DNA of 28,785 nucleotides from a virus. Position numbers and translations under genes: made by a program. Positions 4,090 through 26,624 of the stretch are shown piece after piece. The notes below the pieces were generated by a model. That model saw only the letters and a list, made by a program, of their open reading frames with translations, was not told the DNA's origin and did no database searches. Location: IMG/VR virus record IMGVR_UViG_3300030419_006925, positions 75,397 through 104,181 of that record, one strand, 5' to 3'. Each line of letters opens with the position of its first letter. Position 1 is the first letter of the stretch.

Positions 4090-4290
4090 TTACTTTCTTT
4101 TGCTGACTTCTTGATGCAGATATTCTACGTTTTTTCTTTTCTGTTCCACTACCAATTGAACCTCTTCTGTGGGTAAATCATACTCTTCTTTGATTTCCCA
4201 TAATGCATCTTCTATAGAATCTTGTATTTCTGGTGTGTAGTGTAGGTTTTTCGTCGCATCATTATCTTTTTTCTTAAACCAATTAAACAT
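4090..4290 (-). CDS. hypothetical protein (66 aa)
   Basis: The small charged protein starts MFNWFKKKDNDATKN and contains 'QDSIEDALWEIKEEYDLP' and 'VQLVVEQKRKNVEYLHQEV', which should form two amphipathic helices. No known family is recognised. ATG at 4290 lies only 14 nt downstream of the tmRNA 3' end, so it may be transcribed with the tmRNA and released by processing. No good ribosome binding site is seen. Confidence 0.6.
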   Translation of the reverse strand: MFNWFKKKDNDATKNLHYTPEIQDSIEDALWEIKEEYDLPTEEVQLVVEQKRKNVEYLHQEVSKRK

Positions 4291-4302
4291 AATACTATTG
4301 AT

Positions 4303-4663
<361 letters not shown>

Positions 4664-4671
<8 letters not shown>

Positions 4672-4873
4672 TCGATTTTTTAGTGATTACACCAATTGGA
4701 TTGTGATTTTCATCATCTAACCAAATTAGTGTTTCTTTACCTTTTTTTACTTTCTCGGCAAAAGTGAAACTAATTTCCTTTGCCGCTTTCTTCAAAGCAG
4801 CATCCTCGCTGCTATGTTTGCTAACAAGATCACCTTGAATATAGTGACCATTCCATTTGTATAATTTCCACAT
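4664..4873 (-). CDS. hypothetical protein (69 aa)
   Basis: The protein starts MWKLYKWNGHYIQGDLVSKHSS and carries a helix 'SEDAALKKAAKEISFTF' followed by strands 'KETLIWLDDE' and 'PIGVITKKSRG'. This beta-alpha-beta layout with a leading aromatic strand resembles the 71-residue protein at 11289-11504, though identity is low. The start codon overlaps the upstream stop (TAATG), so translation should be coupled to the redoxin lipoprotein gene. Its last codons overlap the tmRNA 5' end. Function unknown. Confidence 0.68.
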
Positions 4874-5496
4874 TATAAACCGTCCTCGATTGTTTGCCTT
4901 ACATGTTCTTCACTAAAACCAACATGTGCTGAATAAAATTTCATGTCTCTCCCAATATAAATATATGTAGGAAAACCTCCCAGCAGATATCCTTCTATGC
5001 CTACTCCATCGGGATCAAGCATTTTGTCTCTAGAGCCTTGCAATATGGGTGCTGATGTAATGTTGTGATCTGTCACCCAAGTATCAATTTCATACTCGGA
5101 AGGCTCTTGAACCGGAGTATTTCCATCGATAAGCACGGTCACAAATTGAAATCCTTCATCTTTATAATCATCGTGTATTGGTTGTGCGTACATGCCAGCC
5201 ATCTGACATGGATAGCACCACGCTGTGGAAAAGTCCAAAAGAATTACATCGCCCTCATGTTGATATAGATCCCAAGTTTCTCCATTTTGATCTAATAAGC
5301 GAAAATTACAAGCCTTATCGCCGCGATTAATATGTTGGCAATCATCCCCCGGAATAACACCCACTGGTTCCAGTGGTGGTGGTGGGGGTGAGGTGCTGTT
5401 AACAGTCCCTGTATCTATCTTGTTACTTGTTTCTACTTTGCCCGGAGCGCATGCTGTCGCTGCGGATAATCCGATCATAAAAAAGAGCTTTTTCAT
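4873..5496 (-). CDS. TlpA/ResA-like thioredoxin-fold lipoprotein
   Basis: This 207-residue protein has a short signal peptide (MKKLFFMIGLSAATAC) ending in a lipobox-like ATAC with C16, then a Pro-rich linker (six Pro, 37-44). A redoxin domain follows: 'FRLLDQNGETWDL', 'DVILLDFSTAWCYPCQMAG' with active-site C94-x-x-C97, and cis-Pro in 'GGFPTYIY' (P176). Proteins of this form reduce disulfides on the outer face of the membrane. The linker and the 'GDKACNF.LLDQNGETW' wording recall lipoproteins of Myxococcota-type bacteria, so the gene may be host-derived. ATG at 5496 has GAGG eight bases upstream. A lipidated redoxin is unusual cargo for a phage. Confidence 0.88.
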   Translation of the reverse strand: MKKLFFMIGLSAATACAPGKVETSNKIDTGTVNSTSPPPPPLEPVGVIPGDDCQHINRGDKACNFRLLDQNGETWDLYQHEGDVILLDFSTAWCYPCQMAGMYAQPIHDDYKDEGFQFVTVLIDGNTPVQEPSEYEIDTWVTDHNITSAPILQGSRDKMLDPDGVGIEGYLLGGFPTYIYIGRDMKFYSAHVGFSEEHVRQTIEDGL

Positions 5497-5671
5497 ATAT
5501 ACCTCATAAATAAATAGCCTTTTTTATAAAAAAATACCATTCGGTTGTGGATCTTTTGCTCACCACAGCTAATCTACAGTTTATTTTATTTTACCTCGCT
5601 GGCTTGGTTGCTCATAATAGATACGGAGCCACCGTTACTAAGTATATTTCACACCGAATGAGTTTGTGATT

Positions 5672-6019
5672 TCAAATATCGTCTGAAAAGTATTTTTCTA
5701 CTTTGTATTTTTTGCTTATTCTTCCAAATTCTCGATATGTTAGACCTAAAAATCTAGCAGCATCTTTTTTAGATTTGGTTGCTGAAATAGCAAATTTTAA
5801 AATTGCTTCTTTAATAATATAGTCTGATCTCTTCCATATGTCAAATCCATATAACCTGTGATTAATATTTGCTGCTGATAGTTCAAATTTAATTGCTATG
5901 AGATCTTCAATTGACAAATTGCCAATGTAGGTTAATATACTATCATTAATTTTATTTTGATCTTTTAATTTTACAATTATGCTTTTACTGTCAGTAGTAA
6001 TATTTCTTTTTGCTTTCAT
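5672..6019 (-). CDS. Fis-like helix-turn-helix DNA-binding protein
   Basis: The 115-residue protein ends with 'AILKFAISATKSKKDAARFLGLTYREFGRISKKYKV' (broken here by function, about residues 75-110), the layout of the Fis-type C-terminal HTH: helix, 'KKDAARFLGLT', recognition helix 'REFGRISKKY'. The N-terminal half has no recognised domain. ATG at 6019 is chosen; a GTG at 6028 in frame is an alternative. A strong promoter at 6047-6074 would give a leader of about 20 nt. A transcriptional or nucleoid role is likely; its target is unknown. Confidence 0.75.
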   Translation of the reverse strand: MKAKRNITTDSKSIIVKLKDQNKINDSILTYIGNLSIEDLIAIKFELSAANINHRLYGFDIWKRSDYIIKEAILKFAISATKSKKDAARFLGLTYREFGRISKKYKVEKYFSDDI

Positions 6020-7186: not shown

Positions 7187-9474
7187 TGCATAATGCCTCT
7201 TTCCATAATTAGTCTAATAACTTCATCAATCGTGCTTAAATCAACATTTTCTCTTCTAATCAGCATACTTCTTTTCTTTTCCTTTTCATTCTCATCTTCG
7301 AAGTCTCTTTTACCCCAAGGTCCGTTATTTGCCCCGGGCGCGCCTTCGACACCACCACCGCCTGCAACGCTTAATTCTTCTAATTCTACCTTGGGTGGAG
7401 CCTTGCCTAATATATCGAATAAGGTCTTGATTTTATCAGCAGGAACAAATTCAGAAAGTTCATCATATGCTTCTTTATTGTTGGGATCGTCGACCAAATC
7501 GGATATTAAATCGCGCATCGTTGTCGCACTAAAACCCTCACCTCCTCGACTCAAGGCTGGCACGGCATACTCTTCGCCGGATAGTAACTCAATCCCACTC
7601 TTGACATGTTTTTCTTTATCTACGCCGGCCCAGCGCATCCAGTCAGGATTTCCCCTCTTGTCGGCTTTATCACTAGCACCCAATATGACACTATCTCCCT
7701 CTTCTAATGGAAGAGGGCTTCTTTCACTAATATATTCATATGCTACTGTGATTGGTGATCTCATTTCTTTTGAGGCTACTTCGAATTCAACATTTGGCAG
7801 CGATGCAACTTCCGGAAAAAGCGCTTTCCAAAGCTCTATAGCGTGTTCTTCGTCAATGGGAGTGCCATCTCTAAGTTGTCTCTGCGCGTTCATGGGGGCC
7901 GATATCACAACATATACTTTATCCGCTTTCTCTACCCCGTCACCAGTCGCATATCTGCGCACCATATCTGCATGTCCTGCGTGTGGTGGTTTAAATGCGC
8001 CCGGAACGATTGCGAATGTCGTTGATGCCATGGCCTCTGAATCTTCAACTGGGTCTGCATCTTCATCATCAATTAATTCGAATTCAAAATCGTCTTCGTC
8101 TTCTTGCAAGCCATTTACATAGCTTAGAATCGTGTTATAAATTGTTTTCTCTGCGTTTTCTTCCGAAACTATATCTACGATAGGGATTCCACTCAAAACG
8201 TCTTTGTAGACCATATCAGGCAGTTTTTCAAACTTATGATTTGCCTTATTTGCTTCATTGATCCAAGCTTGGAGTGGTTTTGTAATTTTGACATCTTCTG
8301 AAATAATAATTGTAAAATCTTGGTTGAGGTGTTCCGAAACATGTTGCCCATGAGTAGATTCAAGACCTTGTACGATAAAGTCTCCGGTAAGTTTTACTAG
8401 AAAGTCTTCTAGGCCTCTCAAAACGACACCTTCATGTTGACTTAGAGAGCCGGCTTCGCTGGTAAGCACATCTTTCACTGCCTGTCCCAATAATCGTGTT
8501 GCATGATAAAATATGCCACCATTAATGGCGTCATTTATATCGGCTTCGTCTCTGAGATATTCATTTAGCGGGATTCCATCATCTGTTGCGCTACGCATGA
8601 CGGCCATATACACCTCTTTGCTTAGCGCGCCCATTGATTTTCCATCTTTTCGACGTGTAATTTTCCTGTCTTTGGGGTGTTCCACTGTTTGGAGCCATTC
8701 TCGCAACGTTGCTCTCTTGATATTGCCTTCGGCAATTTGTATTTCGACAACTAAATCGAGCACACCTTCAAGATCTAACTCCATCTCTGGATCATACTCC
8801 ACGGGCACATCTCCATAAACTTTAAAGTTATATTTGTGAGCAATGGGGCCCACCTTTTTGATAATGCTTTCTAATGCATTGTGGCTATATGGAATTTCTA
8901 TACCACTCGCCTTTATTGGTTTTCCGTTAGAATCAACCGGCCTTGGTAATCCGGGCCGATCCATCGAGGTTCCATTGCGTACTCGCCAAGCTTGAGCTTT
9001 TTTTTCGTAAAATTGATTAATACCATGAATTGCTAAAATGTTGTCACCATACTCATGAACATTTGATTTACCTTCAATGTATTCTGTATTGAAGTACTTT
9101 GTTGGATCATCCCACAGACCTAGATTAACTAACTCATCTCTAATATTTGGAATTGCCTTATTAAAGATCTTCAACACCTTTTCAATAGCCACGGGCATAC
9201 CATGGCCTTTTGGCCATTTTCTATAAGCGGAGATCGCGTCAAAGCCAACAACAGATGCGATCTCGCTAGTTCCACGATCCATGCGAAACTCTTTTTGTCC
9301 ATCATCATTTGTGATCAACTTTATACTGGTGTTGATACCGTCCCATTTTACACTACCGGCAATTTCACCAGCAGCTAATTGTGTGGCTGCATTATTGATG
9401 TAGTCGACTAAATCCTGACCGGTTTTGATATCGTCAACATCAAATGGGTGGGCCATATGTCCCGGGGTACCCAT
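7183..9474 (-). CDS. fusion of ATP-dependent-ligase-like nucleotidyltransferase and HxGH cytidylyltransferase-like domain
   Basis: The first ~400 of 763 residues carry covalent nucleotidyltransferase motifs. Motif I is 'SVKWDGINT' (K43, D45, G46), a motif III-like 'NTEYIEG' is near 129-135, and motif IV 'HEGVVLRG' is at 347-354. This is the ligase/capping-enzyme fold, which charges a lysine with AMP or GMP. After an acidic linker (456-480) comes a second enzyme: 'VPGAFKPPHAGHADMV' (490-505, HxGH at 498-501) and 'FSATTMRDLI', typical of nucleotidylyltransferases such as NMNAT or cytidylyltransferases. A Gly-rich linker and a helical tail 'STIDEVIRLIMERGIMQ' end the protein. ATG at 9474 overlaps the upstream stop (TAATG). 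Phage proteins with a 'VKWDG' ligase-like core are known, but their substrates are not. A nucleic-acid or NAD-related repair role is inference. Confidence 0.82.
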   Translation of the reverse strand: MGTPGHMAHPFDVDDIKTGQDLVDYINNAATQLAAGEIAGSVKWDGINTSIKLITNDDGQKEFRMDRGTSEIASVVGFDAISAYRKWPKGHGMPVAIEKVLKIFNKAIPNIRDELVNLGLWDDPTKYFNTEYIEGKSNVHEYGDNILAIHGINQFYEKKAQAWRVRNGTSMDRPGLPRPVDSNGKPIKASGIEIPYSHNALESIIKKVGPIAHKYNFKVYGDVPVEYDPEMELDLEGVLDLVVEIQIAEGNIKRATLREWLQTVEHPKDRKITRRKDGKSMGALSKEVYMAVMRSATDDGIPLNEYLRDEADINDAINGGIFYHATRLLGQAVKDVLTSEAGSLSQHEGVVLRGLEDFLVKLTGDFIVQGLESTHGQHVSEHLNQDFTIIISEDVKITKPLQAWINEANKANHKFEKLPDMVYKDVLSGIPIVDIVSEENAEKTIYNTILSYVNGLQEDEDDFEFELIDDEDADPVEDSEAMASTTFAIVPGAFKPPHAGHADMVRRYATGDGVEKADKVYVVISAPMNAQRQLRDGTPIDEEHAIELWKALFPEVASLPNVEFEVASKEMRSPITVAYEYISERSPLPLEEGDSVILGASDKADKRGNPDWMRWAGVDKEKHVKSGIELLSGEEYAVPALSRGGEGFSATTMRDLISDLVDDPNNKEAYDELSEFVPADKIKTLFDILGKAPPKVELEELSVAGGGGVEGAPGANNGPWGKRDFEDENEKEKKRSMLIRRENVDLSTIDEVIRLIMERGIMQ

Positions 9475-9740
9475 TACTCATCCCCCACAGACTCTTCTAA
9501 TATCTGCAGCTTTTCTTGCAAAACGGTAACTTCTGTTTGCATTTTTCTAGCGTATCGTTTAACTTCTCGTAAATGCTGTTTAGCTAGCGACATTCTTCTT
9601 TTTTCAGTTAAGGTTCGAGGTTTAAGATTGGAAATAATTTCCTCTAAACCTTGAATGTAAGTAAAAATTGTTTTTTCATCTAAGCTTTCATTAAGAAAAC
9701 TCTGCCAGTCTGAATTTAAAGACACCTCGGCGCCCTCCAT
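9474..9740 (-). CDS. coiled-coil protein, possibly 5'-extended by a frameshift
   Basis: The 88-residue ORF starts MEGAEVSLNSDWQSFLNESL and then has a long Lys/Glu/Leu-rich helix ('MSLAKQHLREVKRYARKMQ'). The 'DWQSFLNES' part resembles the W-x-x-F-L-x-E pattern of the ENWR-tagged proteins. The same frame stays open upstream as 'IELKKLKQKFILDLLWLQQ' without ATG, GTG or TTG. A better start, ATG at 9828 behind AAGGA, lies in another frame and would join it after loss of one A in the A5 run at 9809-9813. So the real gene may span 9474-9828 with a frameshift. Function unknown. Confidence 0.65.
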   Translation of the reverse strand: MEGAEVSLNSDWQSFLNESLDEKTIFTYIQGLEEIISNLKPRTLTEKRRMSLAKQHLREVKRYARKMQTEVTVLQEKLQILEESVGDE

Positions 9741-12616: not shown

Positions 12617-13315
12617 TTAGTTGGACGGAGGGCATTCGATCCGCTGTAAATTGTACTGGCCATCATTATTGATAACTTTATCGATGACTAGTTCAAAATT
12701 TAATGGTTTAATGTCGTTTATTTCTGGATTGTCGCAAACTTTTGCCAATACATCATCAATGTTCTTTTGAGAGTCCTCGTAGTATTCGATTCGGTTTATG
12801 TTAGACTTTCCGTCGGGCATTATCTTGTTGTTCAACATCTTTACTATGACGTCACCTTTTGATTCCCCTGCAGTAGCTATTGGTCTGATCATTGATGAAT
12901 CGATCCCTATTTCATCAAGATAATCTAAAATAGGTCCCAAAGACTTGCCGCGGCGCGCCGTGAGAATATATGTTTTAGAATTCTCCGGAAAATTTCGTAA
13001 GATATCGGTTACTAACGTAATCTCAAAAGGATCTTTAACAATGGAAAAATCACTTAGATCTATTTGATACCCTGCGTCGACTAGTCCATCGACTGCATCG
13101 AAAGCGTCTATGCCTTCTTCCTCTGCCGCGGCATTCATATACTCTTCGAATTCTTTCTGGTCCCGCAGGGTGGCAGTCGACCCGTCGGGCGCTTTAACCC
13201 GTGTTTCTGACTCCGTATGGGCTATTGTTTCATCAAAGTCGAAGATACGAAGAGTTGTGATGGGCTCTTCTGGCTGTGTGACAAACTTCCGCCAATTTTC
13301 AAATATAGGTTCCAT
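12617..13315 (-). CDS. HAD-superfamily phosphatase-like protein with ENWR N-terminal tag
   Basis: The 232-residue protein starts MEPIFENWRKFVTQPEEP, the ENWR tag. A HAD phosphohydrolase follows: motif I 'IFDFDETIAHTE' (D26, D28), motif II 'TYILTARRG', the lysine in 'ESKGDVIVK' and motif III-like 'EYYEDSQKNI'. It should hydrolyse a phosphate ester or anhydride. A large insertion between motif I and II (about residues 37-100) may be the substrate cap. The start overlaps the upstream gene by exactly 17 nt. The tag is separable from the enzyme, which begins at about residue 20, so tag and enzyme look like joined modules. Confidence 0.85.
   Translation of the reverse strand: MEPIFENWRKFVTQPEEPITTLRIFDFDETIAHTESETRVKAPDGSTATLRDQKEFEEYMNAAAEEEGIDAFDAVDGLVDAGYQIDLSDFSIVKDPFEITLVTDILRNFPENSKTYILTARRGKSLGPILDYLDEIGIDSSMIRPIATAGESKGDVIVKMLNNKIMPDGKSNINRIEYYEDSQKNIDDVLAKVCDNPEINDIKPLNFELVIDKVINNDGQYNLQRIECPPSN
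13290..13315 (-). repeat. ENWR-tag coding block, divergent copy
   Basis: This 26-nt start of the HAD-like gene ends in TTGAAAATTGGCG like the other copies but differs in the first half (MEPIF against MKLLL). The upstream gene stops inside it, as in the copies at 15657, 16270 and 22818. Confidence 0.6.
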
Positions 13316-13589
13316 ATTTTGTGTTTCGCAATGCGCATTCGATAAAAGTTGCTTGTGGCTTAAAGCCGTAGAATCGAATGTCTTCTAAAATATAAGTAGT
13401 ATTTTTAAAGGCTGGGTGCATAATGCGAAATGGTGTTTTTGAAGGCACTACCACTTTGGGGCCCCATTTAACTTGAGCTTGTGGTTCGTCTGTAGTGGTT
13501 CGGAGAACTCCTCTAAACGTGGCTGCTCCATGTTGCCCGTCGATATATCGGGAATCGTCGTTTGAAAAATAATATGAACTAATAATCAT
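13299..13589 (-). CDS. hypothetical protein (96 aa)
   Basis: The protein begins MIISSYYFSNDDSRYIDGQH and has mixed strands ('AQVKWGPKVVV', 'TTYILEDIRFYGF'), ending 'RNTKYGTYI'. A carbohydrate-binding or tail-associated fold is possible but no family is recognised. ATG at 13589 has AAGGA seven bases upstream. Its last codons lie inside the ENWR tag of the downstream HAD-like gene, whose tag supplies its stop codon. Confidence 0.68.
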   Translation of the reverse strand: MIISSYYFSNDDSRYIDGQHGAATFRGVLRTTTDEPQAQVKWGPKVVVPSKTPFRIMHPAFKNTTYILEDIRFYGFKPQATFIECALRNTKYGTYI

Positions 13590-13598
13590 TTTTATCCT

Positions 13599-14387
13599 TT
13601 ATGCTACAACTCCGGGCATGAAATCTCTAAATTTCTCCGCCCCAAGTTTTAGTAATTTTCTTTTAAGTTTCTCGGCTTTGTTTTGAGGAGTTTGGCCAAA
13701 TAATTTGCCAAAAAAACCCGGCTCTTGAAAGAGAGGCTGAATCTCTTTTTCAAAGAAGCTATCTAAATTATAACTTAGTTCTTTGTAAAAGTCAACAGTA
13801 TTTTGATCTTTATATCCTTTATCTATAGAATCAATACCATGTACGATACAATCATCATCCTTGGGTTTTGTTTCTGGGTTTGACCAATCATCAAACGTCC
13901 CCTTGTAGGGATCGGTTGAGTCTGGTACTTCATCGTCGGTCTGTGCGTCTATTTTGTTCCATCGCGATTGTGCACCCGGAGAAACATCATCTCGATCTGC
14001 GGTTACGTAAAGATCGTTTTCTGCCGCAAACCCTAATAAAGCGTCATAAAGCTGTTTGCCGTAACCTCTTCCGATGGATCTCTTGACTGACCATGTACCA
14101 GCACAATTTCCCCCCGAGCCTCCCATGCTCGGTGCGGCCTTTGACATTGCAGGGTTATAAACTGCCCAAATATAACCAACAACTGCTTTGTCGTATAAGG
14201 CCTTATCAAAAAGCTTAATGGTAAAGTCATCAATTGACTCAGCGTTTGATAGTTCAGATTTTATGAACCCTAAGTCTGCAATTGCAAGCTTGATGTTATA
14301 TCCGGGTTCGTAATCTACATAAACTCCCAATAATTGCTTTTCTTGTTCATTCAGGTGTTTTCGCCAATTTTCAAGTAGGAGTTTCAT
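13599..14387 (-). CDS. GNAT-like acetyltransferase with ENWR N-terminal tag
   Basis: The 262-residue protein starts MKLLLENWRKHLNEQ, the tag. From about residue 20 it has a GNAT-like domain with the acetyl-CoA signature 'KRSIGRGYGKQLYDALLGFA' (102-121) in motif A position and a preceding 'TWSV' strand. The later part ('DSIDKGYKDQNTVDFYKELS' and a Lys-rich end) is beyond the GNAT core. Members transfer acetyl groups to amines; the target is unknown. Start overlaps the LamG gene stop as ATGA. The GNAT call rests on motif A only. Confidence 0.72.
   Translation of the reverse strand: MKLLLENWRKHLNEQEKQLLGVYVDYEPGYNIKLAIADLGFIKSELSNAESIDDFTIKLFDKALYDKAVVGYIWAVYNPAMSKAAPSMGGSGGNCAGTWSVKRSIGRGYGKQLYDALLGFAAENDLYVTADRDDVSPGAQSRWNKIDAQTDDEVPDSTDPYKGTFDDWSNPETKPKDDDCIVHGIDSIDKGYKDQNTVDFYKELSYNLDSFFEKEIQPLFQEPGFFGKLFGQTPQNKAEKLKRKLLKLGAEKFRDFMPGVVA
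14362..14387 (-). repeat. ENWR-tag coding block, copy A
   Basis: The 26 nt from ATG to GGCG are identical to copies at 15657-15682 and 16270-16295, although the proteins following are unrelated. Coding starts at the ATG (14387). Confidence 0.85.
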
Positions 14388-15646
14388 TTATTTTTTTCCC
14401 AACTTGGCAATGCTGTCGGATATCCGCCACCCGAACTTCCAATCGCAGCAAAAGTTCCGTGATTTTCGTTTCCTGAGTAATCTTTGACGGTGGTTCCGTC
14501 GCCCTCATTGAATTTCCAATATCCCACAAGCCCGCTTTCTCGCGATAAATCCAAATATCTCTTATCGGTATTATAAACGTCCGCAACCCAATCAGCATCC
14601 TTTGCTGTGTCAAAAATGGCTACCTGATCAAGAGCACAAGCCCATCCGTTGTTATAACTATCATCTACATTACGAGCACCAAAATACATACCGCCAGTCG
14701 AGCCGCCTGTGGTATTCCAATTGATGGTGTCTGTATCGCGAAGCACACCGTTAACATATACTTTACGAGCCGCGCCAGAAGATGTATCTGCACGGTCATC
14801 ATATGTTACTACCATATGATACCAAGTACCATCTGTTTTTAGATTCCAGTAGCTACCGTCTTGAACTAGCAATGATTCTTCTACTGGGGTGTCCATATTA
14901 ACCCATGCCGTCTTCATATCATTTGAACCAACACCGAAGTATGATTGGCGCTTTCTATAGATACCAAACCCAAATCGTTCACTATTAGAATGTTTCCTAC
15001 CAAACGCAAGCATAGTATTTCCCACCTCATCTGGCCTAACCCAATAAGAAACAGTAAACCCTAAATTAAGATTATAATCATCAGGGTTAAAGTCAGTTGT
15101 TACGTAACTTCGCGATGCGGTACCGGTATTTCCGCCAAATGATAGTGAATAATTATTTAGACTATATCTTTTCTTGCTACGACCCGGCTTGCGCCGGTAT
15201 GCTAACAGATTATCGCGTTTAAACATTTCCATTGCGCGGTCAAAATCTAAATCAGCCAACCTTTGATTAAGGGGATCCGATAACCAACTGTCCCAATCAA
15301 GTACCTGAAGAGAAGATTCACGATTTTGGATTATAATTCTTATTTCTTCAAGCTTTTCGTCCTTTTGACGCCGATCTTTTATTTGAGCCAATAAAGTGTC
15401 AAACTGTTTATCCCATTTTTGTTCTACTAATTTTTCTTTTCTTTGAATATGTTTCTGGCGAAGACGTTCGGTTTCCCGCTGCTCTATAAGGCGTTTAGCG
15501 CGCGCCGCAGCCTCTTGCTGTTCGCGAGCTTCAGCTTCTATTTTGGCAACTCGGGCAGCTTCCTCCTTAGCTTCCAGTTCAGCTTCGCGCTGGCGCCTTC
15601 TTTCCAACTGTTTTTGTTTACGCCTCATGTAATCTATAGTTATCAT
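14384..15646 (-). CDS. coiled-coil plus LamG/concanavalin-like lectin protein
   Basis: Residues 1-110 are a highly charged coiled coil (Arg/Gln/Glu-rich, 'EARVAKIEAEAREQQEAAAR'). From about 170 a jelly-roll appears: 'NYSLSFGGN', 'LNLGFTVSYWVRPDE', 'WYHMVVTYDDRA', 'YVNGVLRDTDTINW', 'DQVAIFDTAKD' and 'GLVGYWKFNEGDGTTVKDYS', the LamG_3-type order. Such domains bind glycans. A coiled-coil stalk with a lectin head suggests a fibre or virion decoration that recognises host surface sugars. The ATG at 15646 directly follows, in frame, the TAG stop of the orphan tag ORF (15647-15682), so amber read-through or mutation would add the ENWR tag. Confidence 0.85.
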   Translation of the reverse strand: MITIDYMRRKQKQLERRRQREAELEAKEEAARVAKIEAEAREQQEAAARAKRLIEQRETERLRQKHIQRKEKLVEQKWDKQFDTLLAQIKDRRQKDEKLEEIRIIIQNRESSLQVLDWDSWLSDPLNQRLADLDFDRAMEMFKRDNLLAYRRKPGRSKKRYSLNNYSLSFGGNTGTASRSYVTTDFNPDDYNLNLGFTVSYWVRPDEVGNTMLAFGRKHSNSERFGFGIYRKRQSYFGVGSNDMKTAWVNMDTPVEESLLVQDGSYWNLKTDGTWYHMVVTYDDRADTSSGAARKVYVNGVLRDTDTINWNTTGGSTGGMYFGARNVDDSYNNGWACALDQVAIFDTAKDADWVADVYNTDKRYLDLSRESGLVGYWKFNEGDGTTVKDYSGNENHGTFAAIGSSGGGYPTALPSWEKNK

Positions 15647-15682
15647 CTACATTCCTCGCCAATTTTCAAGTAGGAGTTTCAT
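15647..15682 (-). CDS. orphan ENWR tag mini-ORF (MKLLLENWRGM)
   Basis: The minus strand encodes MKLLLENWRGM and stops at TAG (15647-15649). The next codon is the ATG of the LamG gene in the same frame. Its first 26 nt equal the tag blocks of two neighbouring genes. Either a tag that lost its gene, a leader peptide coupling translation, or the first exon-like part of a protein read through an amber codon. Whether it is translated is not known. Confidence 0.45.
   Translation of the reverse strand: MKLLLENWRGM
15657..15682 (-). repeat. ENWR-tag coding block, copy B (orphan)
   Basis: Identical over 26 nt to 14362-14387 and 16270-16295. The upstream gene ends within it at TGA (15666-15668), the overlap being 17 nt. 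Confidence 0.85.
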
Positions 15683-16295
15683 CTGGCTCTCCTTTGGTTG
15701 GCTTGAGAACGGCATATGGAACAATCTTTTTGTTTGTTAGGGCGCCAGTTTGTCTGGTCTGTCCGCTAACATGTGCTAAACCGCCATCCGGCAATTCTAG
15801 CACTACGGATGGCTTGTCTATCGAGTCAGACTCCTTAAACATATCCACCCATCTTTGATAGCTAGATTCTTTGGGATAACTTTTTCCAGATGCATCTGGA
15901 TCGGTTGTACGTCCTTTGAAAAATTTATATATTTCATCATGAACTTGTTCAGATGTCATACCTTTTTCATACATTTCAATAATATCATGAACTTGTGCAT
16001 GATTGTGTATATTTTTCATTTGCGATAGTGGTAGATTTTCTATGGTCGCAGAACTCAATGCTTTCGCAAAGTCTTCCGCGGAGAGTAAATAAGGATAATT
16101 ATCTTCTATCACTTTCTTGTTCAATCCGGGCCATCTCTGTGTTATATAACTGTCACCTTCTTCAATTGATGTATTTATTTCTTCTCCCCACTCTTGACTT
16201 GCAGCCGCGGCAGACCATGGAGATGCAGAAAGATAGGTAAACCCATCCGTAGATTCAAGCAAATACTGCCGCCAATTTTCAAGTAGGAGTTTCAT
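15666..16295 (-). CDS. hypothetical ENWR-tagged protein (209 aa)
   Basis: The protein starts MKLLLENWRQYLLESTDGF, then a mixed helical domain ('YPYLLSAEDFAKALSSATIE', 'NIHNHAQVHDIIEMYEKG') and a C-terminal 'VVLELPDGGLAHVSGQTRQT' then 'GALTNKKIVPYAVLKP'. The 'VSGQTRQ' segment faintly recalls ParB-like 'GhTR' loops but is not enough to name a family. ATG at 16295 is chosen since it begins the tag; the frame is open further upstream. It overlaps the small membrane protein by 17 nt and its own end ('DETPT') lies in the next tag. Confidence 0.78.
   Translation of the reverse strand: MKLLLENWRQYLLESTDGFTYLSASPWSAAAASQEWGEEINTSIEEGDSYITQRWPGLNKKVIEDNYPYLLSAEDFAKALSSATIENLPLSQMKNIHNHAQVHDIIEMYEKGMTSEQVHDEIYKFFKGRTTDPDASGKSYPKESSYQRWVDMFKESDSIDKPSVVLELPDGGLAHVSGQTRQTGALTNKKIVPYAVLKPTKGEPDETPT
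16270..16295 (-). repeat. ENWR-tag coding block, copy C
   Basis: Identical over 26 nt to 14362-14387 and 15657-15682. The small gene upstream stops within it (16279-16281). Confidence 0.85.
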
Positions 16296-16422
16296 CAGAT
16301 TGTTCTTCTTCTTGTTCGCAAATCTCGGGTTCACAATTTTTAGCTTCCCTATGGTCCTTAGTTGTGACAAATGCGACAACACTCGCACAAGCAAACCATA
16401 TTATAAATAGATCAATGGCCAT
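16279..16422 (-). CDS. small membrane protein (47 aa)
   Basis: The minus strand encodes MAIDLFIIWFACASVVAFVT followed by a charged tail with two Cys ('AKNCEPEICEQEEEQSDETPT'). One N-terminal membrane segment (3-20) is clear. The last residues DETPT are encoded by the first bases of the downstream ENWR tag, an overlap of 17 nt, the same end as the protein at 15666-16295. ATG at 16422 has only a weak ribosome site. Function unknown. Confidence 0.55.
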   Translation of the reverse strand: MAIDLFIIWFACASVVAFVTTKDHREAKNCEPEICEQEEEQSDETPT

Positions 16423-16440
16423 GTCTTGTGTCCATAAGTT

Positions 16441-16689
16441 TCATTTAATCTCTTCCACGGAATCTTCCATTAGATCATCAAAATCAGTACGCAACTTGAT
16501 CATCGAATTAAACTGCGCCCTTTTTCTTTCCAATACAAGCGAGCCTTGTGGTCTGACAAGTTCTCCAGAAACCTCCACACTCTCGAAATCGATCTCAGTT
16601 CTTTCTTTATAAACAACTTTTGGTTCTTTTTTTGTGTCATCGTTAGCGTGTGCAATTCCAGAAATCAAAAATAATATAACATATCTCAT
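16441..16689 (-). CDS. secreted protein with signal peptide (82 aa)
   Basis: ATG at 16689 starts MRYVILFLISGIAHANDDTK, a short signal peptide with cleavage after AHA. The mature part has 'EIDFESVEVSGELVRPQGSL' and 'LERKRAQFNSMIKLRTDFDD', ending acidic. This 'GELVRPQG...R.F..LI..R.DF' wording recalls small periplasmic proteins of myxobacteria-like genomes, from memory only. Start overlaps the upstream gene stop as ATGA. It is likely periplasmic; function unknown. Confidence 0.72.
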   Translation of the reverse strand: MRYVILFLISGIAHANDDTKKEPKVVYKERTEIDFESVEVSGELVRPQGSLVLERKRAQFNSMIKLRTDFDDLMEDSVEEIK

Positions 16690-16838
16690 AACCAGTAATA
16701 TCCTACCGCGATACCAACTGCAAACGCGCATGTTTTAGCGAGACTGTATAGGACATAATCCTCTAAGTCACCATTGAGCAAGGCTAATTGTTTGCATCTT
16801 GCCCACGTACTTCTCATTAAATCTCTTGGTGTACTCAT
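16686..16838 (-). CDS. small membrane-anchored protein (50 aa)
   Basis: The minus strand encodes MSTPRDLMRSTWARCKQLAL then 'LNGDLEDYVLYSLAKTCAFAVGIAVGYYWL' (read in two parts), so a basic N-terminus is followed by one C-terminal membrane segment. ATG at 16838 has GGAG seven bases upstream, an excellent site. Its stop overlaps the start of the secreted protein gene by ATGA. A tail-anchored membrane peptide; function unknown. Confidence 0.68.
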   Translation of the reverse strand: MSTPRDLMRSTWARCKQLALLNGDLEDYVLYSLAKTCAFAVGIAVGYYWL

Positions 16839-16852
16839 TTTTTCTCCTGTTT

Positions 16853-17107
16853 TTAAGAATTGTTTACAATATAATTAACAACCTCTTCTCCATTCGGCAA
16901 TCTTCCGAGTGTTTGTTTGTCAAAAATTGTTTCACCGTCAGCCTTAATTTCAAAGACATCATCATGCCTTAATATCAGTTCAGGCGATTTTTCTACTATT
17001 AAGTGTAGCGAATTTATTAGACTTAATCTTTGTATAATGTCTATTTCAATATTTTCGCTATATTCCATATTTTCGTGCGTAGGTGCATATTCAATTGTGA
17101 TTTTCAT
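16853..17107 (-). CDS. Rdx/SelW-like protein lacking the CxxC motif
   Basis: Residues 39-80 ('EKSPELILRHDDVFEIKADG', 'ETIFDKQTLGRLPNGEEV') match the second half of the Rdx (SelW/SelH/SelT-like) family, in which a 'G.FEV..DG..IFSK...GRFP' stretch follows the redox strand. The first strand 'MKITIEYAPTHENMEYSEN' fits the 'IEYC..C' strand but the Cys-x-x-Cys/Sec is replaced by 'APTHE'. So the fold may be kept while the redox chemistry is lost. A binding or decoy role is possible. Start is ATG at 17107, behind GGAAT. Confidence 0.6.
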   Translation of the reverse strand: MKITIEYAPTHENMEYSENIEIDIIQRLSLINSLHLIVEKSPELILRHDDVFEIKADGETIFDKQTLGRLPNGEEVVNYIVNNS

Positions 17108-17110
17108 TTT

Positions 17111-18286
17111 TTATTCCGTTCTAATCTTGTTAAAGGCAATACTGTAAGCTGTGTTGCCGCCAGTATCAGTCAAGGGTGTTTTTATTTGAGTCCAATTAAC
17201 CATATCTGTGCTCTTGGCGAGATAGCCTGCACCACCGACGAGCCACCAAGTGCTAGCGCCATCATATCTCACACATTGCCATGTTCCATTGCTGCCGTCG
17301 GCATTTGCGACCTGAATCTCAGTCCACGAAGCTGCATTATCTGAACTATACCACACGTATCCGTCTGCGCCAGCTATAACCCAATTGTTATTGCCATCAG
17401 AATCAACACCATACATCAGGCGAGTCGGATCCCCAGAGGGTAAACTCATAACACCCCACTCGGTTGCGTCACCGGATCCGGTGATATGCTCCATTCTATC
17501 ATAATACCCCACTGCAACCCATTTATCATTTCCGTAAGCAACGTCCCACAAAGCTCGGCTTTCACTATGGTTTGCGCCGCTTGTCCCTGTTGTTCCATAA
17601 CGTGTCGTCCAATCTGCAGCATCACCATCGCCGCCCGTGGTACTACTAAAGACCCGTCCCGTATTTGAAACTGCCACAAACAGAGGGCTTGTGGTGCTGT
17701 GATTGAAGCCGATGCCCGTGATGATTTTAGAGGTTGCCAGATCACCATTAATCGGCCGACGCCCATACCAGTCGCCGCCAGTTGTTATGGTTTCACTACC
17801 GTCGCCGAAAAAGCTGGCATATTCAGCATCATTTCCTACAAGAGTAAATGCTGCGATGCCGCTTGCTGGGGCTGTTGAGCCTGAGTGTCCATAAACAATG
17901 TCGTATGCTGCCTCACCGGTGGGATTAACCTCGGTCCAGTCGGCCGAGCCCGTCGGAGTGACGGTTGCAACCCTTATTGGTCGACCCGTTTTATCATTAC
18001 AGATTACCCATGTTTCTGTTCCATCTGGCAATCTACCAAAGGCAATATTTCTTTGCTTGTCGGCGCTTCTGCTATTTGATTGATATGAGGACCACGATCC
18101 ACTAGCAAAACCTTCAGTAGTACTAATCAGAGTCCAATTTCTTTGTCCAGAAACCACCGCAACCGTTGGTGCTGCTTCTGCTGCGGCTTTCTCAATCCCC
18201 GAGATTTTTGCAATACTGTCAGCAGCCACACCGCTTACTTTTGCGATATCGCCTATGTTAATGCCGGTAAGTTTCGAAATGGCCAT
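17111..18286 (-). CDS. beta-propeller fibre-like protein with KISGV N-terminal repeats (paralogue 1)
   Basis: The 391-residue protein begins MAISKLTGINIGDIAKVSGV and 'AADSIAKISGIEKA', a degenerate repeat I.KI.GV, then about five propeller-like blades with 'D.ASWTEI', 'STDMVNWTQI' and 'FGRLPDGTETWVICNDK' (BNR/sialidase-like Asp-box wording). Such phage propellers are typically virion surface or fibre components that bind host glycans or proteins. It lies beside a paralogue (18312-19442) in the same orientation, 25 nt apart, with its own AGGAA site. The structure is inferred from repeats. Confidence 0.78.
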   Translation of the reverse strand: MAISKLTGINIGDIAKVSGVAADSIAKISGIEKAAAEAAPTVAVVSGQRNWTLISTTEGFASGSWSSYQSNSRSADKQRNIAFGRLPDGTETWVICNDKTGRPIRVATVTPTGSADWTEVNPTGEAAYDIVYGHSGSTAPASGIAAFTLVGNDAEYASFFGDGSETITTGGDWYGRRPINGDLATSKIITGIGFNHSTTSPLFVAVSNTGRVFSSTTGGDGDAADWTTRYGTTGTSGANHSESRALWDVAYGNDKWVAVGYYDRMEHITGSGDATEWGVMSLPSGDPTRLMYGVDSDGNNNWVIAGADGYVWYSSDNAASWTEIQVANADGSNGTWQCVRYDGASTWWLVGGAGYLAKSTDMVNWTQIKTPLTDTGGNTAYSIAFNKIRTE

Positions 18287-18311
18287 AAAATATTTTTCCT
18301 AAAATTTATAA

Positions 18312-19442
18312 TCATAAAGGCAGATAAACATCGGGTGCCGCATCTAGTGCGTCTTTGCTACCTACGTTAGAAGCAATCTCAGCCCACGAATCTCCTCCAT
18401 CGGTACTTACAAACGTATCCCCTGTATAACACGTAGCCACCCAAGTCGTACCGTCAGTTGAGACTGATGAGAGGGTGCCATGTGTCGTGGTGCTAAAATC
18501 AGCCCCATTCTCGTCCATGGTGATCGTTTTTCCGCTCACATCGAATGTCCACTTCTTTTGTTGGCCAACCACCACAACGCGGCCAGCGGCTGCAGCCACA
18601 TGAGTTTGCTGATCAAAAGCCTGAGCGCTATTATTTAAAGTGGTTTCTGTCGACCAGTCGGTCAGGTCTGAGGCTGCTGCCGAATACACTGTAGCATCGC
18701 TCGCATCCACACCGGCAACTAGTGTACTGTTTGTATATACCAAAGCTCTGATATTGCCCGGATCGGCATTGCTGGAATCTACCAAGGTGTGTTTTAAGCT
18801 CCATGTGCTACCATCATTTGTAGATTCGTAAATCCTATTTTCCTGAGCGAACCACCAGTTTCCAGCACCATCCGAGGCAAGAGCATAGATTGCCGTAGTA
18901 TTAATATCATCGACCCCAGACACATCTATTTGAGCCCAACTAGAGCCGTCAACAGATCTCATAATCGCCTGAGTACCCATTTTCCCTACAGAAATCCAAA
19001 CATCGTTACCCCACAGTACTGCAAACCTGCGCGCAGGAAAGTTGTTTCCGGCCGAATCTTGACTTACGCCGGTCCATGGTCCAGTTGTGGGATCGTCGTG
19101 ATATGCAATTTCACAAGCATCTGTAGCATATGTTGCCACCCAAAGAGCATCGCCATTGCCATCCTTGCCGTACGCAACGTGAATATGATCGTTTCCACCG
19201 CTTGGATTTGGGCTACTGCCGCCGGCGAAAGCATCGTAGGTCGACCAGCCGCCACTAGACGCTGAGATCTCAGCAACAGGAATATGTGAAACATTTCGAT
19301 CATCATGAACCATAACCCATCGAGTAGCACCTTCAGACGGAGTTGTGCATCCAACAAATGCCGAAATTGATGATTTTGTAACACCATCGATTTTAGCGAT
19401 ATCTGCGGCAGCAACGCCATTTATTTTCGCAAAATCAGCCAT
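18312..19442 (-). CDS. beta-propeller fibre-like protein with KINGV N-terminal repeats (paralogue 2)
   Basis: The 376-residue protein starts MADFAKINGVAAADIAKIDG, 'VTKSSISAF', the same repeat as its neighbour, then blades with 'SVDGSSWAQID', 'STNDGSTWSLKHTL', 'STDGTTWVATCYTG', 'STDGGDSWAEIAS'. The Asp-box pattern S-T-D-G-x-x-W is repeated at least four times, so a beta-propeller is likely. It has a GGAG site ten bases before ATG at 19442. The two proteins share the N-terminal repeat but little else, so they may be alternative adhesins sharing one attachment module. Confidence 0.8.
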   Translation of the reverse strand: MADFAKINGVAAADIAKIDGVTKSSISAFVGCTTPSEGATRWVMVHDDRNVSHIPVAEISASSGGWSTYDAFAGGSSPNPSGGNDHIHVAYGKDGNGDALWVATYATDACEIAYHDDPTTGPWTGVSQDSAGNNFPARRFAVLWGNDVWISVGKMGTQAIMRSVDGSSWAQIDVSGVDDINTTAIYALASDGAGNWWFAQENRIYESTNDGSTWSLKHTLVDSSNADPGNIRALVYTNSTLVAGVDASDATVYSAAASDLTDWSTETTLNNSAQAFDQQTHVAAAAGRVVVVGQQKKWTFDVSGKTITMDENGADFSTTTHGTLSSVSTDGTTWVATCYTGDTFVSTDGGDSWAEIASNVGSKDALDAAPDVYLPL

Positions 19443-19463
19443 TTATTGTTCTCCTGTCGTTTG

Positions 19464-19709
19464 TTAATTGTCGTATGGATCTTCGTTTTTTTTATTTCTA
19501 ATAATAGATGATGCTTGTAGCATATCTTGTGGATCTACTTCTTTAAGTATGAGATTTCCTGTTTTTGGTTCATAATACATCCCAATCAAATCTCCTTTAG
19601 TGACGTTGGTTAACTCTTCTTCTGTGATAGTTAACTTCCCGTCGCTGCGTTTAACTAGTGCAGTTAAAATACTAAACAAGTATTCTGGATCGTTCAAATA
19701 TTCACTCAT
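19464..19709 (-). CDS. hypothetical protein (81 aa)
   Basis: The protein starts MSEYLNDPEYLFSILTALVK, then 'LTITEEELTNVTKGDLIGMY' and 'GNLILKEVD'. Residues 45-65 form a strand-turn-strand ('KGDLIGMYYEPKTGNLILKE') that resembles cyanophage-type small proteins. ATG at 19709 overlaps the upstream stop as ATGA and has AGGA upstream. It lies between the large 842-residue gene and the fibre genes. No function can be given. Confidence 0.68.
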   Translation of the reverse strand: MSEYLNDPEYLFSILTALVKRSDGKLTITEEELTNVTKGDLIGMYYEPKTGNLILKEVDPQDMLQASSIIRNKKNEDPYDN

Positions 19710-22234
19710 CTTCTTCCTAAAAATCCTTTCCATGTATTCACAAGGTGTTCGTCTAAATTTTGTTGTTGGCTAGCTGGCAAACGCGCATTGAGGGTTTGTT
19801 TCATCGTCCAATCAAATATATTGCTTAATCTGTCTTCGTCGTCCATATCTCCAGTAACCAATTCTCTAAATACTTCGATTACTGCATCTGGCGTGTCTTG
19901 ATTGACTATAAACTCAATTTCATATGTAACAACGTATCCAATGTGTTCACTACCAGAGATATCTGCGCTAGAGCCGTTAAGATCAACATTGTACTCAATT
20001 CCTAGTTCGTCCTTCGCTGGTTTAAGCAATTCTTGGCGAATCATCACTCTCCAGCCGGTAGAATTCAATATATCGGCCAAAACTTGCGGATTTACACCCA
20101 ATTCTTCGGGATCAAAGTCGTGTGAGGTTGATGCTGTTGACTCATATGAGTCCTCTGGGTGTTCTCCATCAGTCCGGACATCCCATTCATAAGAACCAAG
20201 GTCATTGTTGTCGATATCGTTAACCAATTTAACATAACCACCACCTTCAAGCCAGTTTTCCTGTTTCAAGAATGTTCTAAGGATTTCTTTATATTCTCTC
20301 CAGTGATCGTCTATTTTCTGATCGAGATTGAGGCAAAAGTCATTAAGACCATCCGGATCATAGAAAATGGCGCCTTCACCCGAAATTTCAGGATGTTGCA
20401 TATTGAGTCGACAGGCAAAAACCACAGCATCAGGCCCGTTTGATACTCTTAGATAATTGATCCACGAATTGTCGGTGTCAAAAAGAGACCCATATCGATC
20501 ATTCATGTAATCAAATGCATGCATAGCTGTTGGATATGAATTGGGAGTTCTAACAAACTCATCTTGGGGGATTTGTATGTGAATTTCTGCTTGCGCAGTA
20601 ATATATAAGCCGCCATCACCATCATCTTCGACATCGGCTTCCACTTTTATCATAGCCCAGCGATTATTCCACTCTTCTAGTGCAGTTTCGACGTCTTGTT
20701 CCCAACGGCCGGCCATTCCAGAGATTGCATTTGAATCTAGCGTATCCTCAGTGTGGGAGTCCTGTTTCATGCTGCCAGTAAAGCCTTTAAAGTGATCTGC
20801 CCCTATTAATCTTGATACCAAGGCCCTTCTGCCCGCCGCACCGGCTGTATCTTCGTAAGAACCGCCAAAAATCGTTAATCGGTCTAAATTAACCTTACCA
20901 TCTTCTTTTGGCATGTTTTCTATGACTTCTTGCTGGTTTTCTCTCGCCCAAGCAATAACTCTTTCCACAAAACCGGGTATAGCTGCCCCGTAGACGCGTT
21001 TTTCCGGCACAGCTATCTCTGTACCCTCGTCGTAGCGTTTAGGGGTGTCTGTGTCGTAATAACGCACCTGACGAAGCCTTACGCGACTAACTGGCTCAAT
21101 CGAGCCGGCATCGCCGTATCTTTTGTCGTCATAAAATATTTCAATGCCACCTTGCATCTCTTCTTCGATTTCGTCCATGTCAAGATCGTCTCTGCCGCTC
21201 CATTTGTGTAAATCTTCGGTTTCAACGACATATGCAACGGCTCCATGGCCATGCGCTTCGGCTACGGCGCACTTATAGTAAGATCCTTGCGTGGATCCGC
21301 GACTTGGAGGGCTATGACAAGAGGTAATGTTGTCAAAATCAGCCATTCTCATCACATCGACCGGATCTCGGGTCAAAATGATGGAATATTTGTCATTTGT
21401 GAGTTCTCCGATGTTCTTTTTGATATATCCGGCGTTTTCTTGCCAATATTTGGCTAATTCGGGCATTCTAGTGACTTTTCCGGCTTGAGCGTCCTCATAT
21501 CCGTTATAATACTTGTTTATCCAACCCATAGAAGAGGTTCCCATGTATAATTCGAGTCCATTTTGGATTTGGTAGTACCTTTTGAGTTGTTCGGTGGTAA
21601 AAGCGTCCTTTATTTGACCCATAGAGAAGGCTACACTATATCCAGCGGCGGTTGCCCGATCTTCATAGACATGTTTGGCGACTATTTGCCTCATTTCCTT
21701 AAAATCTCGCAATAATTTGTCTACTTTGGCGAAATATTTGCCGATTTTCATCTGAAACTTACGATTTACCTTCTTTGTGCGGTTCCCGCCCCCAAGATCT
21801 ATCAAATAGTCTATCATGGCTTGATCATTCTCAATTGAGTTCTCAGTCCACTCTCTTTGAGCCGAAACCATGCCTTTTTCCCAGTCAATAGTCAATCCGA
21901 GCACCTGATCTAGCTCTTGTACGAACTGACCAAGCTCAGATTGGGTATCCATTGTCGGAAAATTGATAATAAGGCGAGTTTTGCCGGCAAATAGCTGATT
22001 AAACGCTAAATCGTCCGGTTCGAGGTCGGCTAAAGTGTCAATTACGATCTGATATTCGTCTTCATCGAGTTCTCGAAGCAATTTTTCGCCATTTTCGAGA
22101 TAAATCTCTTGTTTTTTGTACCATTCGCGACTTTTCGAGTCTTTTGGAGGTTCTCCTTGCCCAAATCCGCGCCTTTCGTTTAAATTTGAGAGCAGTTTAG
22201 AGGTTTTTAGTAAGATTTCTTCATCATTTAACAT
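19706..22234 (-). CDS. large conserved-phage-like protein of unknown function (842 aa)
   Basis: It starts MLNDEEILLKTSKLLSNLNE and is mixed alpha/beta. A distinctive central block at about 285-336 reads 'IILTRDPVDVMRMADFDNIT', 'SCHSPPSRG', 'YYKCAVAEAHGHGAVAYVV', with paired Cys/His (C306, H307, C322, H328, H330) that could form a metal or active site. The later half is acidic and strand-rich ('DGGLYITAQAEIHIQIPQD'). The block looks conserved in phage proteins, but no function is known to me. It ends 'LVNTWKGFLGRR'. It is followed by a 4-nt overlap with the next gene. A virion or host-takeover role is equally likely. Confidence 0.75.
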   Translation of the reverse strand: MLNDEEILLKTSKLLSNLNERRGFGQGEPPKDSKSREWYKKQEIYLENGEKLLRELDEDEYQIVIDTLADLEPDDLAFNQLFAGKTRLIINFPTMDTQSELGQFVQELDQVLGLTIDWEKGMVSAQREWTENSIENDQAMIDYLIDLGGGNRTKKVNRKFQMKIGKYFAKVDKLLRDFKEMRQIVAKHVYEDRATAAGYSVAFSMGQIKDAFTTEQLKRYYQIQNGLELYMGTSSMGWINKYYNGYEDAQAGKVTRMPELAKYWQENAGYIKKNIGELTNDKYSIILTRDPVDVMRMADFDNITSCHSPPSRGSTQGSYYKCAVAEAHGHGAVAYVVETEDLHKWSGRDDLDMDEIEEEMQGGIEIFYDDKRYGDAGSIEPVSRVRLRQVRYYDTDTPKRYDEGTEIAVPEKRVYGAAIPGFVERVIAWARENQQEVIENMPKEDGKVNLDRLTIFGGSYEDTAGAAGRRALVSRLIGADHFKGFTGSMKQDSHTEDTLDSNAISGMAGRWEQDVETALEEWNNRWAMIKVEADVEDDGDGGLYITAQAEIHIQIPQDEFVRTPNSYPTAMHAFDYMNDRYGSLFDTDNSWINYLRVSNGPDAVVFACRLNMQHPEISGEGAIFYDPDGLNDFCLNLDQKIDDHWREYKEILRTFLKQENWLEGGGYVKLVNDIDNNDLGSYEWDVRTDGEHPEDSYESTASTSHDFDPEELGVNPQVLADILNSTGWRVMIRQELLKPAKDELGIEYNVDLNGSSADISGSEHIGYVVTYEIEFIVNQDTPDAVIEVFRELVTGDMDDEDRLSNIFDWTMKQTLNARLPASQQQNLDEHLVNTWKGFLGRR

Positions 22235-22237
22235 ATT

Positions 22238-22843
22238 TTACTCTTTCATTGACTTTGAGCCCCGACATTTCCACTTTTTGCGGGATAAATCGTTGGCACA
22301 TGGGGGGTTTTTACACTTTTTAATCTTTGCTGACCGTGCACAGTACGCATCACCCTTCTTTGTACCGGGTCTGATGCGATCTCCGCCACCTTTTGCCTTC
22401 CCAGCTTGACCATATGAGCGACATTTACCATTTACACGCTTGGCGAAGCGCTTTCCTTTGGAGGGTTTACACGGTTTCTTTTTTTTTTCGTCTAAAACTG
22501 CTTGAATTTCTTCATCAATAATAGCATCGATGGTCTCATCGATGTCTAAGGTCTCCGGATAATCGTCATCGCCGGGTTTTGCCTTCTTTTCTCCGGAACC
22601 CGCTTTAATTCGCTTCTTCTTCGCGGCAATATTAGCCCAAAGGCCCGGTTTTTTCTCTTCTTCAAGTTCTTCTTCTAATTTAGCATCATCAGTTTCATCA
22701 AGTATCTGCTGAATGCGTTTTGCTTGTCCAGCATGCATCTCGGACGCTTTTTTTAACTCACCAACAATGGTTTTAAGTTCTTCTTCGTGTTCTTTTGTGT
22801 GTGATTCGGCAAATAAGCGCCAATTTTCAAGTATCAGTTTCAT
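22238..22843 (-). CDS. basic ENWR-tagged protein with GLWANI motif
   Basis: The 201-residue protein starts MKLILENWRLFAESHTKEHE, then a coiled helix to about 65. 'KKPGLWANIAAKKKRIKAGS' (64-83) is a block common to phage and giant-virus proteins. The C-terminal 80 residues are strongly basic with paired Cys ('GKCRSYG', 'YCARSAK', 'CKNPPC', 'KWKCRG'), likely zinc- or nucleic-acid-binding. Such a protein could condense DNA in the capsid, an inference. Start overlaps the Nudix gene by exactly 17 nt, with the tag supplying that gene's stop. Confidence 0.75.
   Translation of the reverse strand: MKLILENWRLFAESHTKEHEEELKTIVGELKKASEMHAGQAKRIQQILDETDDAKLEEELEEEKKPGLWANIAAKKKRIKAGSGEKKAKPGDDDYPETLDIDETIDAIIDEEIQAVLDEKKKKPCKPSKGKRFAKRVNGKCRSYGQAGKAKGGGDRIRPGTKKGDAYCARSAKIKKCKNPPCANDLSRKKWKCRGSKSMKE
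22818..22843 (-). repeat. ENWR-tag coding block, copy D
   Basis: Differs from copies A-C by two bases (MKLIL against MKLLL). The upstream Nudix gene ends within it at TGA (22827-22829), the usual 17-nt overlap. Confidence 0.8.
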
Positions 22844-23291
22844 TTTTAGCCATCTCCAAAGCTTTCTCCAGTAAATAGATCGGAATTTCGGTATCTTCTA
22901 TGTCTTTTATATCATCAATTGTAGCCCATTTATAGTCATCATGTTCGATCTCACCAGTTTCAGGATTGGGTTTGTCAACATTTATCTCCCCAGACCACTT
23001 TTGAGTCATAAAATAATGTTTTTTATCGTTTTGAATTCCTAAAAACTTTAGATCACTAATTTTACAGGACAAATTAGCCTCTTCTTCTAGCTCCCTTATC
23101 GCCCCTGCTTCAATTGAATCATCATTTTCATCTATATGACCCCCCGGTAATGTCCATTGACCCTTTCGATCATCAATATTAGAACGTCGAATGATTAGAA
23201 ATTGTTCTTCGTCATCAAGGCAAGCGATGACACCTACTGTTTTTAACTCATTTTCTGTGAGAAACGAATTCCATTTGTTTTCTATCGACAT
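22827..23291 (-). CDS. Nudix hydrolase with W-x-x-F-L-x-E N-terminus
   Basis: The 154-residue protein begins MSIENKWNSFLTENELKTVG, then a Nudix domain: 'LPGGHIDENDDSIEAGAIRE' and 'LEEEANL' (48-74), with the R-E-L-E-E-E catalytic core at 66-71. One extra residue lies between G50-G51 and the first E. Nudix enzymes hydrolyse nucleoside diphosphates linked to another moiety. The N-terminal stretch resembles the ENWR tag in layout (W, then F-L, then E). Start overlaps the protease gene by 10 nt. Substrate unknown. Confidence 0.85.
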   Translation of the reverse strand: MSIENKWNSFLTENELKTVGVIACLDDEEQFLIIRRSNIDDRKGQWTLPGGHIDENDDSIEAGAIRELEEEANLSCKISDLKFLGIQNDKKHYFMTQKWSGEINVDKPNPETGEIEHDDYKWATIDDIKDIEDTEIPIYLLEKALEMAKNETDT

Positions 23292-26363: not shown

Positions 26364-26624
26364 CTATACCTTAATCCGATCAATTATGTATGGATGTTGA
26401 ACTGATAGATCTTTATAAAGCTTTTTGAGCACCTGCTTAGATAGCTCACCTAGCTCGGTTTTAACGTCCTTTTTCTTAAGGAGTTTGAGTAACTCATCTG
26501 CAATAATGTCTTTAACGGCTTTTGATGAAAGCTCTCGCTTGACGATATCTTTTATGTCGGATTTGTCAGTTGCTGTCAACTCTTCCAAAATAATTTGCTT
26601 AAGTTCTGATTTTTTGATCATCAT
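26364..26624 (-). CDS. helical protein with KKSELKQIILEEL N-terminus (86 aa)
   Basis: The protein starts MMIKKSELKQIILEELTATD and is entirely helical and Lys/Glu/Leu-rich ('KDIIADELLKLLKKKDVKTE', 'LGELSKQVLKKLYKDLS'). An N-terminal K-x-x-L-x-x-I-I-x-E-E-L helix heads many marine-phage virion proteins, so this may be another packaging or interaction tag. ATG at 26624 overlaps the upstream stop as ATGA. Function unknown. Confidence 0.68.
   Translation of the reverse strand: MMIKKSELKQIILEELTATDKSDIKDIVKRELSSKAVKDIIADELLKLLKKKDVKTELGELSKQVLKKLYKDLSVQHPYIIDRIKV

Follow-up and report, generated by a model that had tools for sequence, protein, structure and literature searches.

A short N-terminal peptide shared by dozens of unrelated proteins of uncultured T4-like bacterial viruses

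Read from sequence, the same short N-terminal peptide is found on dozens of otherwise unrelated proteins of uncultured T4-like bacterial viruses. The peptide, termed the tag here, very probably directs proteins of T4-like environmental phages to the capsid and marks them for processing. All features of the T4 signal that can be judged from sequence were found in the tag, without exception. Its pattern matches the address label of the T4 head, so the tag probably marks an arsenal of enzymes carried in the particle. The first-pass annotation of the DNA described below had already proposed a T4-like capsid-targeting role, and this proposal is well supported by the register of the tag, its use of Glu and not Asp, the gp21 protease, the head operon, and the modularity of the tag.

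The tag in the window and in other viral contigs

The window, a stretch of 28,785 nucleotides, covers positions 75397–104181 of a 104,181-base IMG/VR virus record. Its open reading frames, read by eye, and their relatives point to a T4-like myovirus, of which the record is a fragment. Three tRNA genes (Gly and two Asn) and a phage-encoded tmRNA, whose tag peptide is ANNNLHFEQRLAA, lie at 1364–1918 and 4304–4671 on the minus strand.

Four window proteins, all encoded on the minus strand, contain ENWR from residue 6, as the annotation had reported, and the motif has no further occurrence anywhere in the 104-kb record. The HAD-like protein (12617–13315) carries the tag MEPIFENWRKFVTQ at 13274–13315, with Gln at the processing position; its relative in contig L034, 72% identical, reads MKLIFENWRKFVNE. 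The GNAT-like protein (13599–14387) starts with MKLLLENWRKHLNE at 14346–14387, and a relative at L124:11101–11874 bears MKEILTEWRKFLNE. The tag MKLLLENWRQYLLE of an unknown protein (15666–16295) is located at 16254–16295 and shows the full consensus. A longer open reading frame with a TTG start at 16394 was rejected for this protein, and 16295 was taken as the true start. The basic Lys/Cys-rich protein (22238–22843) begins with MKLILENWRLFAE(S) at 22802–22843, and near relatives of its family elsewhere have the N-terminus MKLILENWRLFTE or MNKIHNNWRLFLE.

Two looser forms noticed on first pass are likewise present, both on the minus strand. The Nudix hydrolase (22827–23291) carries MSIENKWNSFLTE at 23253–23291, and its relative in L074 bears MKLLLENWQEVLNE. 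An 88-residue coiled-coil protein (9474–9740) carries MEGAEVSLNSDWQSFLNE (SDWQSFLNE) at 9687–9740. The T4-like layout ascribed to the tag holds in its register, but the full motif W..[FY][LIV].E is present in only one of the four ENWR proteins of the window. The last position is Gln in the HAD-like protein, the second aromatic is His in the GNAT-like protein, and the basic protein is one residue short. N-terminal ENW is observed four times in the window genome versus 0.12 expected, and the relaxed motif W..[FYHL][LIVMFA].[EQD] five times versus 0.25 expected (P = 6e-6), a rate far above that in protein interiors.

A DNA pattern for MK[LF]hhENW, scanned over 2.9 million IMG/VR viral contigs, matched at least 120 stretches. 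A scrambled pattern (NEW for ENW) gave only six matches in total in the same viral collection. In 257 Gb of bacterial and archaeal genomes, the tag had two matches, both phage-like. On the collections scanned, the tag is phage-specific. The search across phages for the N-terminal tag and its fused domains, suggested in the annotation, returned at least 146 distinct tagged proteins, which fall into at least 90 unrelated body clusters (clustering at E 1e-3).

Among the matches listed, similarity between tagged proteins ends at residue 14, beyond which an acidic bias alone remains. Residues 9–14 played no part in the search, which did require W8. These six positions are occupied in turn by R (73%), a basic or polar residue, [YF] (89%), [LIVM] (about 90%), any residue, and E (76%) among the matches listed, where residue 11 is aromatic in 133 of 146 proteins and residue 12 aliphatic in 131 of 146. 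W8 is invariant in the looser tags as well. When the ENW proteins are set aside, 56 N-termini still have W..[FY][LIVM].E, versus 0.3 expected, and none has its Asp version; these N-termini are not a random phage sample because they were drawn from the same loci.

In most large tag genomes, a profile of the tag has 5–12 matches; five control contigs have none. The profile also found no match in Flavobacterium phage immuto or Microcystis phage Mel-JY01, the two isolates whose capsid proteins are closest. A tblastn search of isolates with the 20-residue consensus tag returned nothing useful, as expected from the insensitivity of short queries. Neighbouring pairs of tagged genes number 59, about twice the mean of 27 in shuffles. 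A partial literature search, including a query by the tag letters, found no earlier description of the ENWR tag.

Correspondence with the T4 capsid-targeting sequence

The T4 internal proteins IPII and IPIII carry the capsid-targeting sequence MKTYQEFIAE↓A, which is processed by gp21 (PMC9026906, PMC3012670). In the IPIII leader, targeting depends on residues 4 and 7 and processing on residues 8 and 10; a change of residue 10 to Asp stops processing while targeting is kept (PMC9026906). Both proteins show this sequence in the T4 record, and gp23 reads FLTE↓A, with cleavage points taken from the literature. W8, [YF]11, [LIV]12, and E14 of the tag correspond to Y4, F7, I8, and E10 of T4 with equal spacing and a shift of four residues. 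The probability of a chance match to the T4 register is about 1e-3 over ten offsets.

The position equivalent to the T4 processing site is highly selective. Among the matches listed, the ratio of Glu to Asp is 111:1 at residue 14, compared with 202:150 at residues 15–24 (P = 3e-21), and it is 72:1 when one of these proteins is taken per cluster. Across the entire collection, the full pattern has ten matches with Asp at this position, all genuine tags, versus at least 120 with Glu. The residue following Glu14 is mostly acidic, whereas the sites in T4 IPII, gp22, and gp23 have Ala; cleavage of the tag may therefore be less strict or occur elsewhere.

The tag phages encode a gp21-type (S77) prohead protease and a gp23-type capsid protein with a predicted cleavable propeptide, as T4 does. 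Of 31 tag contigs, many of which are short, 10 match the gp21 protease profile PF03420; among the eight longer than 115 kb, seven do. Among 24 control contigs picked by an unrelated 15-mer, all of which lack the tag, one passed the PF03420 cut-off, and none of the seven above 115 kb did so. The co-occurrence could partly reflect the simple T4-like identity of the tag phages. The profile gave nothing in the window's own 104-kb record, which is incomplete. Where T4 gp23 (FLTE) is cut, seven tag-phage capsid proteins read LL[RK]E, and the initial segment of the tag-phage proteases ends in LLTE or a similar sequence. Contigs L008, L113, and L141 have a tagged gene between the portal and gp21 genes, at the position of T4 gp67/68. 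A tagged gene of L016 lies at the contig end, behind the same upstream head genes. The T4 late-promoter motif TATAAATA was not found upstream of tagged genes.

The tag thus resembles the T4 signal as a short N-terminal peptide common to otherwise unrelated proteins, with both aromatics, the order aromatic-x-x-aromatic-aliphatic-x-Glu in the same register, and an L/I-x-E end without tolerance for Asp. It differs from the T4 signal in being four residues longer, in its hydrophobic-ENWR core, in having Trp for Tyr, and in the acidic residue after Glu. The tag rides on enzymes (Nudix, HAD, GNAT, DnaQ exonuclease, and zeta-like kinase), whereas the T4 signal is restricted to small internal proteins, and it has many more bodies and also a C-terminal form.

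Two other systems bear comparison. The injected anti-restriction proteins Ip1-3 of T-even phages are described as differing in their bodies and sharing only the leader, with several of them in each phage at variable loci (PMC12373910). Head-protein propeptides of phiKZ-like giant phages, including those of ejection proteins, are cut after Glu by a prohead protease (PMC9026906, PMC5694885, PMC7411985), but the descriptions give them several cleavage sites and do not present them as a single shared short tag.

Other sorting signals could share the form of an aromatic, an aliphatic, and an acidic residue. It is rather unlikely, though conceivable, that the tag binds another assembly target, such as the tail, the neck, a membrane-bound assembly site, or the replication compartment, in place of the prohead core, and that tagged proteins act in assembly or replication outside head packaging. 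The wide spread of the tag on enzymes would suit such a target, as would Glu-less C-terminal forms, which fit targeting without processing. Such a target leaves unexplained both why Glu is so strictly chosen over Asp at the P1 position of the protease and why the register agrees with that of a peptide proven to target the capsid, and the tagged family within the portal–protease operon also argues against it.

Modularity of the tag

The motif is also used as a C-terminal module and therefore acts as a peptide. An 842-residue protein of the window (19706–22234, minus strand) ends with the form NTWKGFLGRR, without Glu, at 19709–19738. In its family of about 800 residues, four members are tagged at the N-terminus but not at the C-terminus, and a dozen, including the window protein, bear W-[KR]-x-[FY]-[LI] at the extreme C-terminus. 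The member in L044 combines the C-terminal form with a weak N-terminal form. The N- and C-tagged sets are divergent, so the change of terminus may represent one or two events. Three further proteins end in the full tag, and the motif is enriched at C-termini. The C-terminal forms mostly lack Glu, as would be expected if targeting and processing are separable.

An orphan copy of the tag, MKLLLENWRGM followed by a stop, is encoded by an 11-codon open reading frame at 15647–15682 on the minus strand, in frame and directly before an untagged laminin-G-domain gene (14384–15646). The same arrangement is present at L105:3537, L082:2167, and L086:5885, and the DNA of these orphans (MKLLLENWRG[ILM] and a stop) is identical over about 29 bases. 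The orphan is a candidate leader peptide, read-through product, or cassette relic. A leader joined to the gene by stop-codon read-through was rejected; all four orphans are in frame, yet they represent just two gene contexts, and chance could account for this.

The tag codons differ synonymously. Among the matches listed, 120 DNA alleles encode the tag, and one 27-mer allele accounts for 26 of 173 copies. This common allele and the body-less orphans in the window, L082, L086, and L105 would agree with a conserved unit of DNA, a translation-start or recombination cassette that serves as a gene-swapping site and makes the peptide incidental. Such a cassette is very improbable given the 120 alleles with synonymous change, a conservation that tracks peptide chemistry, and the presence of the motif at C-termini too.

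The tagged bodies include Nudix, GNAT, DnaQ-type exonuclease, zeta-toxin-like kinase, HAD, 5'-nucleotidase, and M23 peptidase, and the majority match no Pfam family. The Pfam matches of the bodies included no T4 IP family. Identical types of body are also found with looser tags, with other N-termini, or untagged, and the length of the spacer between tag and enzyme differs within the HAD family. Of the domain labels given on first pass, Nudix is firm, with a Pfam NUDIX match (2e-19) from residue 18 and a confirmed Nudix fold, and HAD (E 0.09) and GNAT (E 0.011) are weak. A fold search with the HAD-like protein gave weak matches only (best E 4e-3), so its label rests on a DxDxT motif and weak profiles.

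One common tagged protein (CPPATQDLELNTKNR..., L067:4734–5168 and relatives) has distant homologues among phage proteins with the annotation high-potential iron-sulfur protein. The homologue in phage DSL-LC01 (OQ999401.1, 63051–63785) directly precedes genes that are annotated as capsid maturation protease.

The tag is outside the predicted enzyme fold in AlphaFold models of the Nudix and HAD-like proteins. In the window Nudix hydrolase, residues 1–10 have a pLDDT of 51, and most of the core is at about 90 or higher. In the HAD-like protein, whose model is of moderate quality overall, the tag helix (residues 3–13) is part of a block with a pLDDT of 42. An ordinary first helix conserved within each enzyme family, an alternative raised in the annotation and in line with the nearly invariant W and E of the Nudix family, is excluded by the occurrence of the tag on at least 90 unrelated body clusters, and bodies with other tags or none, the variable spacer, and the predicted position outside the fold speak against it as well.

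A second tag class and the proposed loading of the head

A second class of N-terminal tag is represented in the window by MMIKKSELKQIILEE at 26580–26624, in an 86-residue protein (26364–26624, minus strand). The pattern MK[IL]TKxxLKxIIxEE (typically MKITKxxLKxIIxEE) is observed at 40 N-termini versus 1.15 expected and ends in aliphatic-x-Glu. A wider form, MK[IVL]TxxxL[KR]x[IL]IxEE, occurs on unrelated small proteins at many loci (for example G000 422–1003 and 4284–5982). A variant with Cys for Glu starts a head-operon gene just after gp21. G000 also contains a long block (47000–75000) that, by eye, consists of surface-sugar genes: glycosyltransferases, methyltransferases, an epimerase, and two NeuB-like acid-sugar synthases.

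Flavobacterium phage immuto has N-terminal repeats of its own (L155:25061; L157:11675, 17631, and 18632). MKKQILSEQF[KR]RMQ[KF]LAGIITES occurs twice, and NF[DN]L[KR][KS]FL[VT]ENKLT occurs twice just before the terminase gene. These repeats are possibly the tag equivalent of this phage.

As a capsid-targeting signal, the tag would work as follows. Late in infection, the N-terminal 14 residues would form a short amphipathic helix, whose aromatics W8 and Y/F11 would dock on the prohead core. The attached protein would be brought into the prohead before shell closure and would thereby be present in the virion. A gp21-type prohead protease would cut after the Glu of [LIV]-x-E and free the body in the head. 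The body would be packed alongside the DNA and probably accompany it on injection.

We lean slightly towards a more general head-loading code, in which W-type N-terminal, second N-terminal, and cleavage-free C-terminal tags would be interchangeable and would load several to a dozen enzymes per phage, out of about 90 body types, into the virion for delivery before phage gene expression.

The genes of uncultured ocean phages are mostly unannotated. A readable address label, if true, would allow the proteins inside the head, which are probably delivered at the start of infection, to be listed from sequence alone. The catalogue would comprise about 90 body types, many of them unknown, compared with a handful in T4 research. 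The tags would also constitute portable 14-residue signals by which proteins, tagged at either end, could be loaded into T4-like heads.
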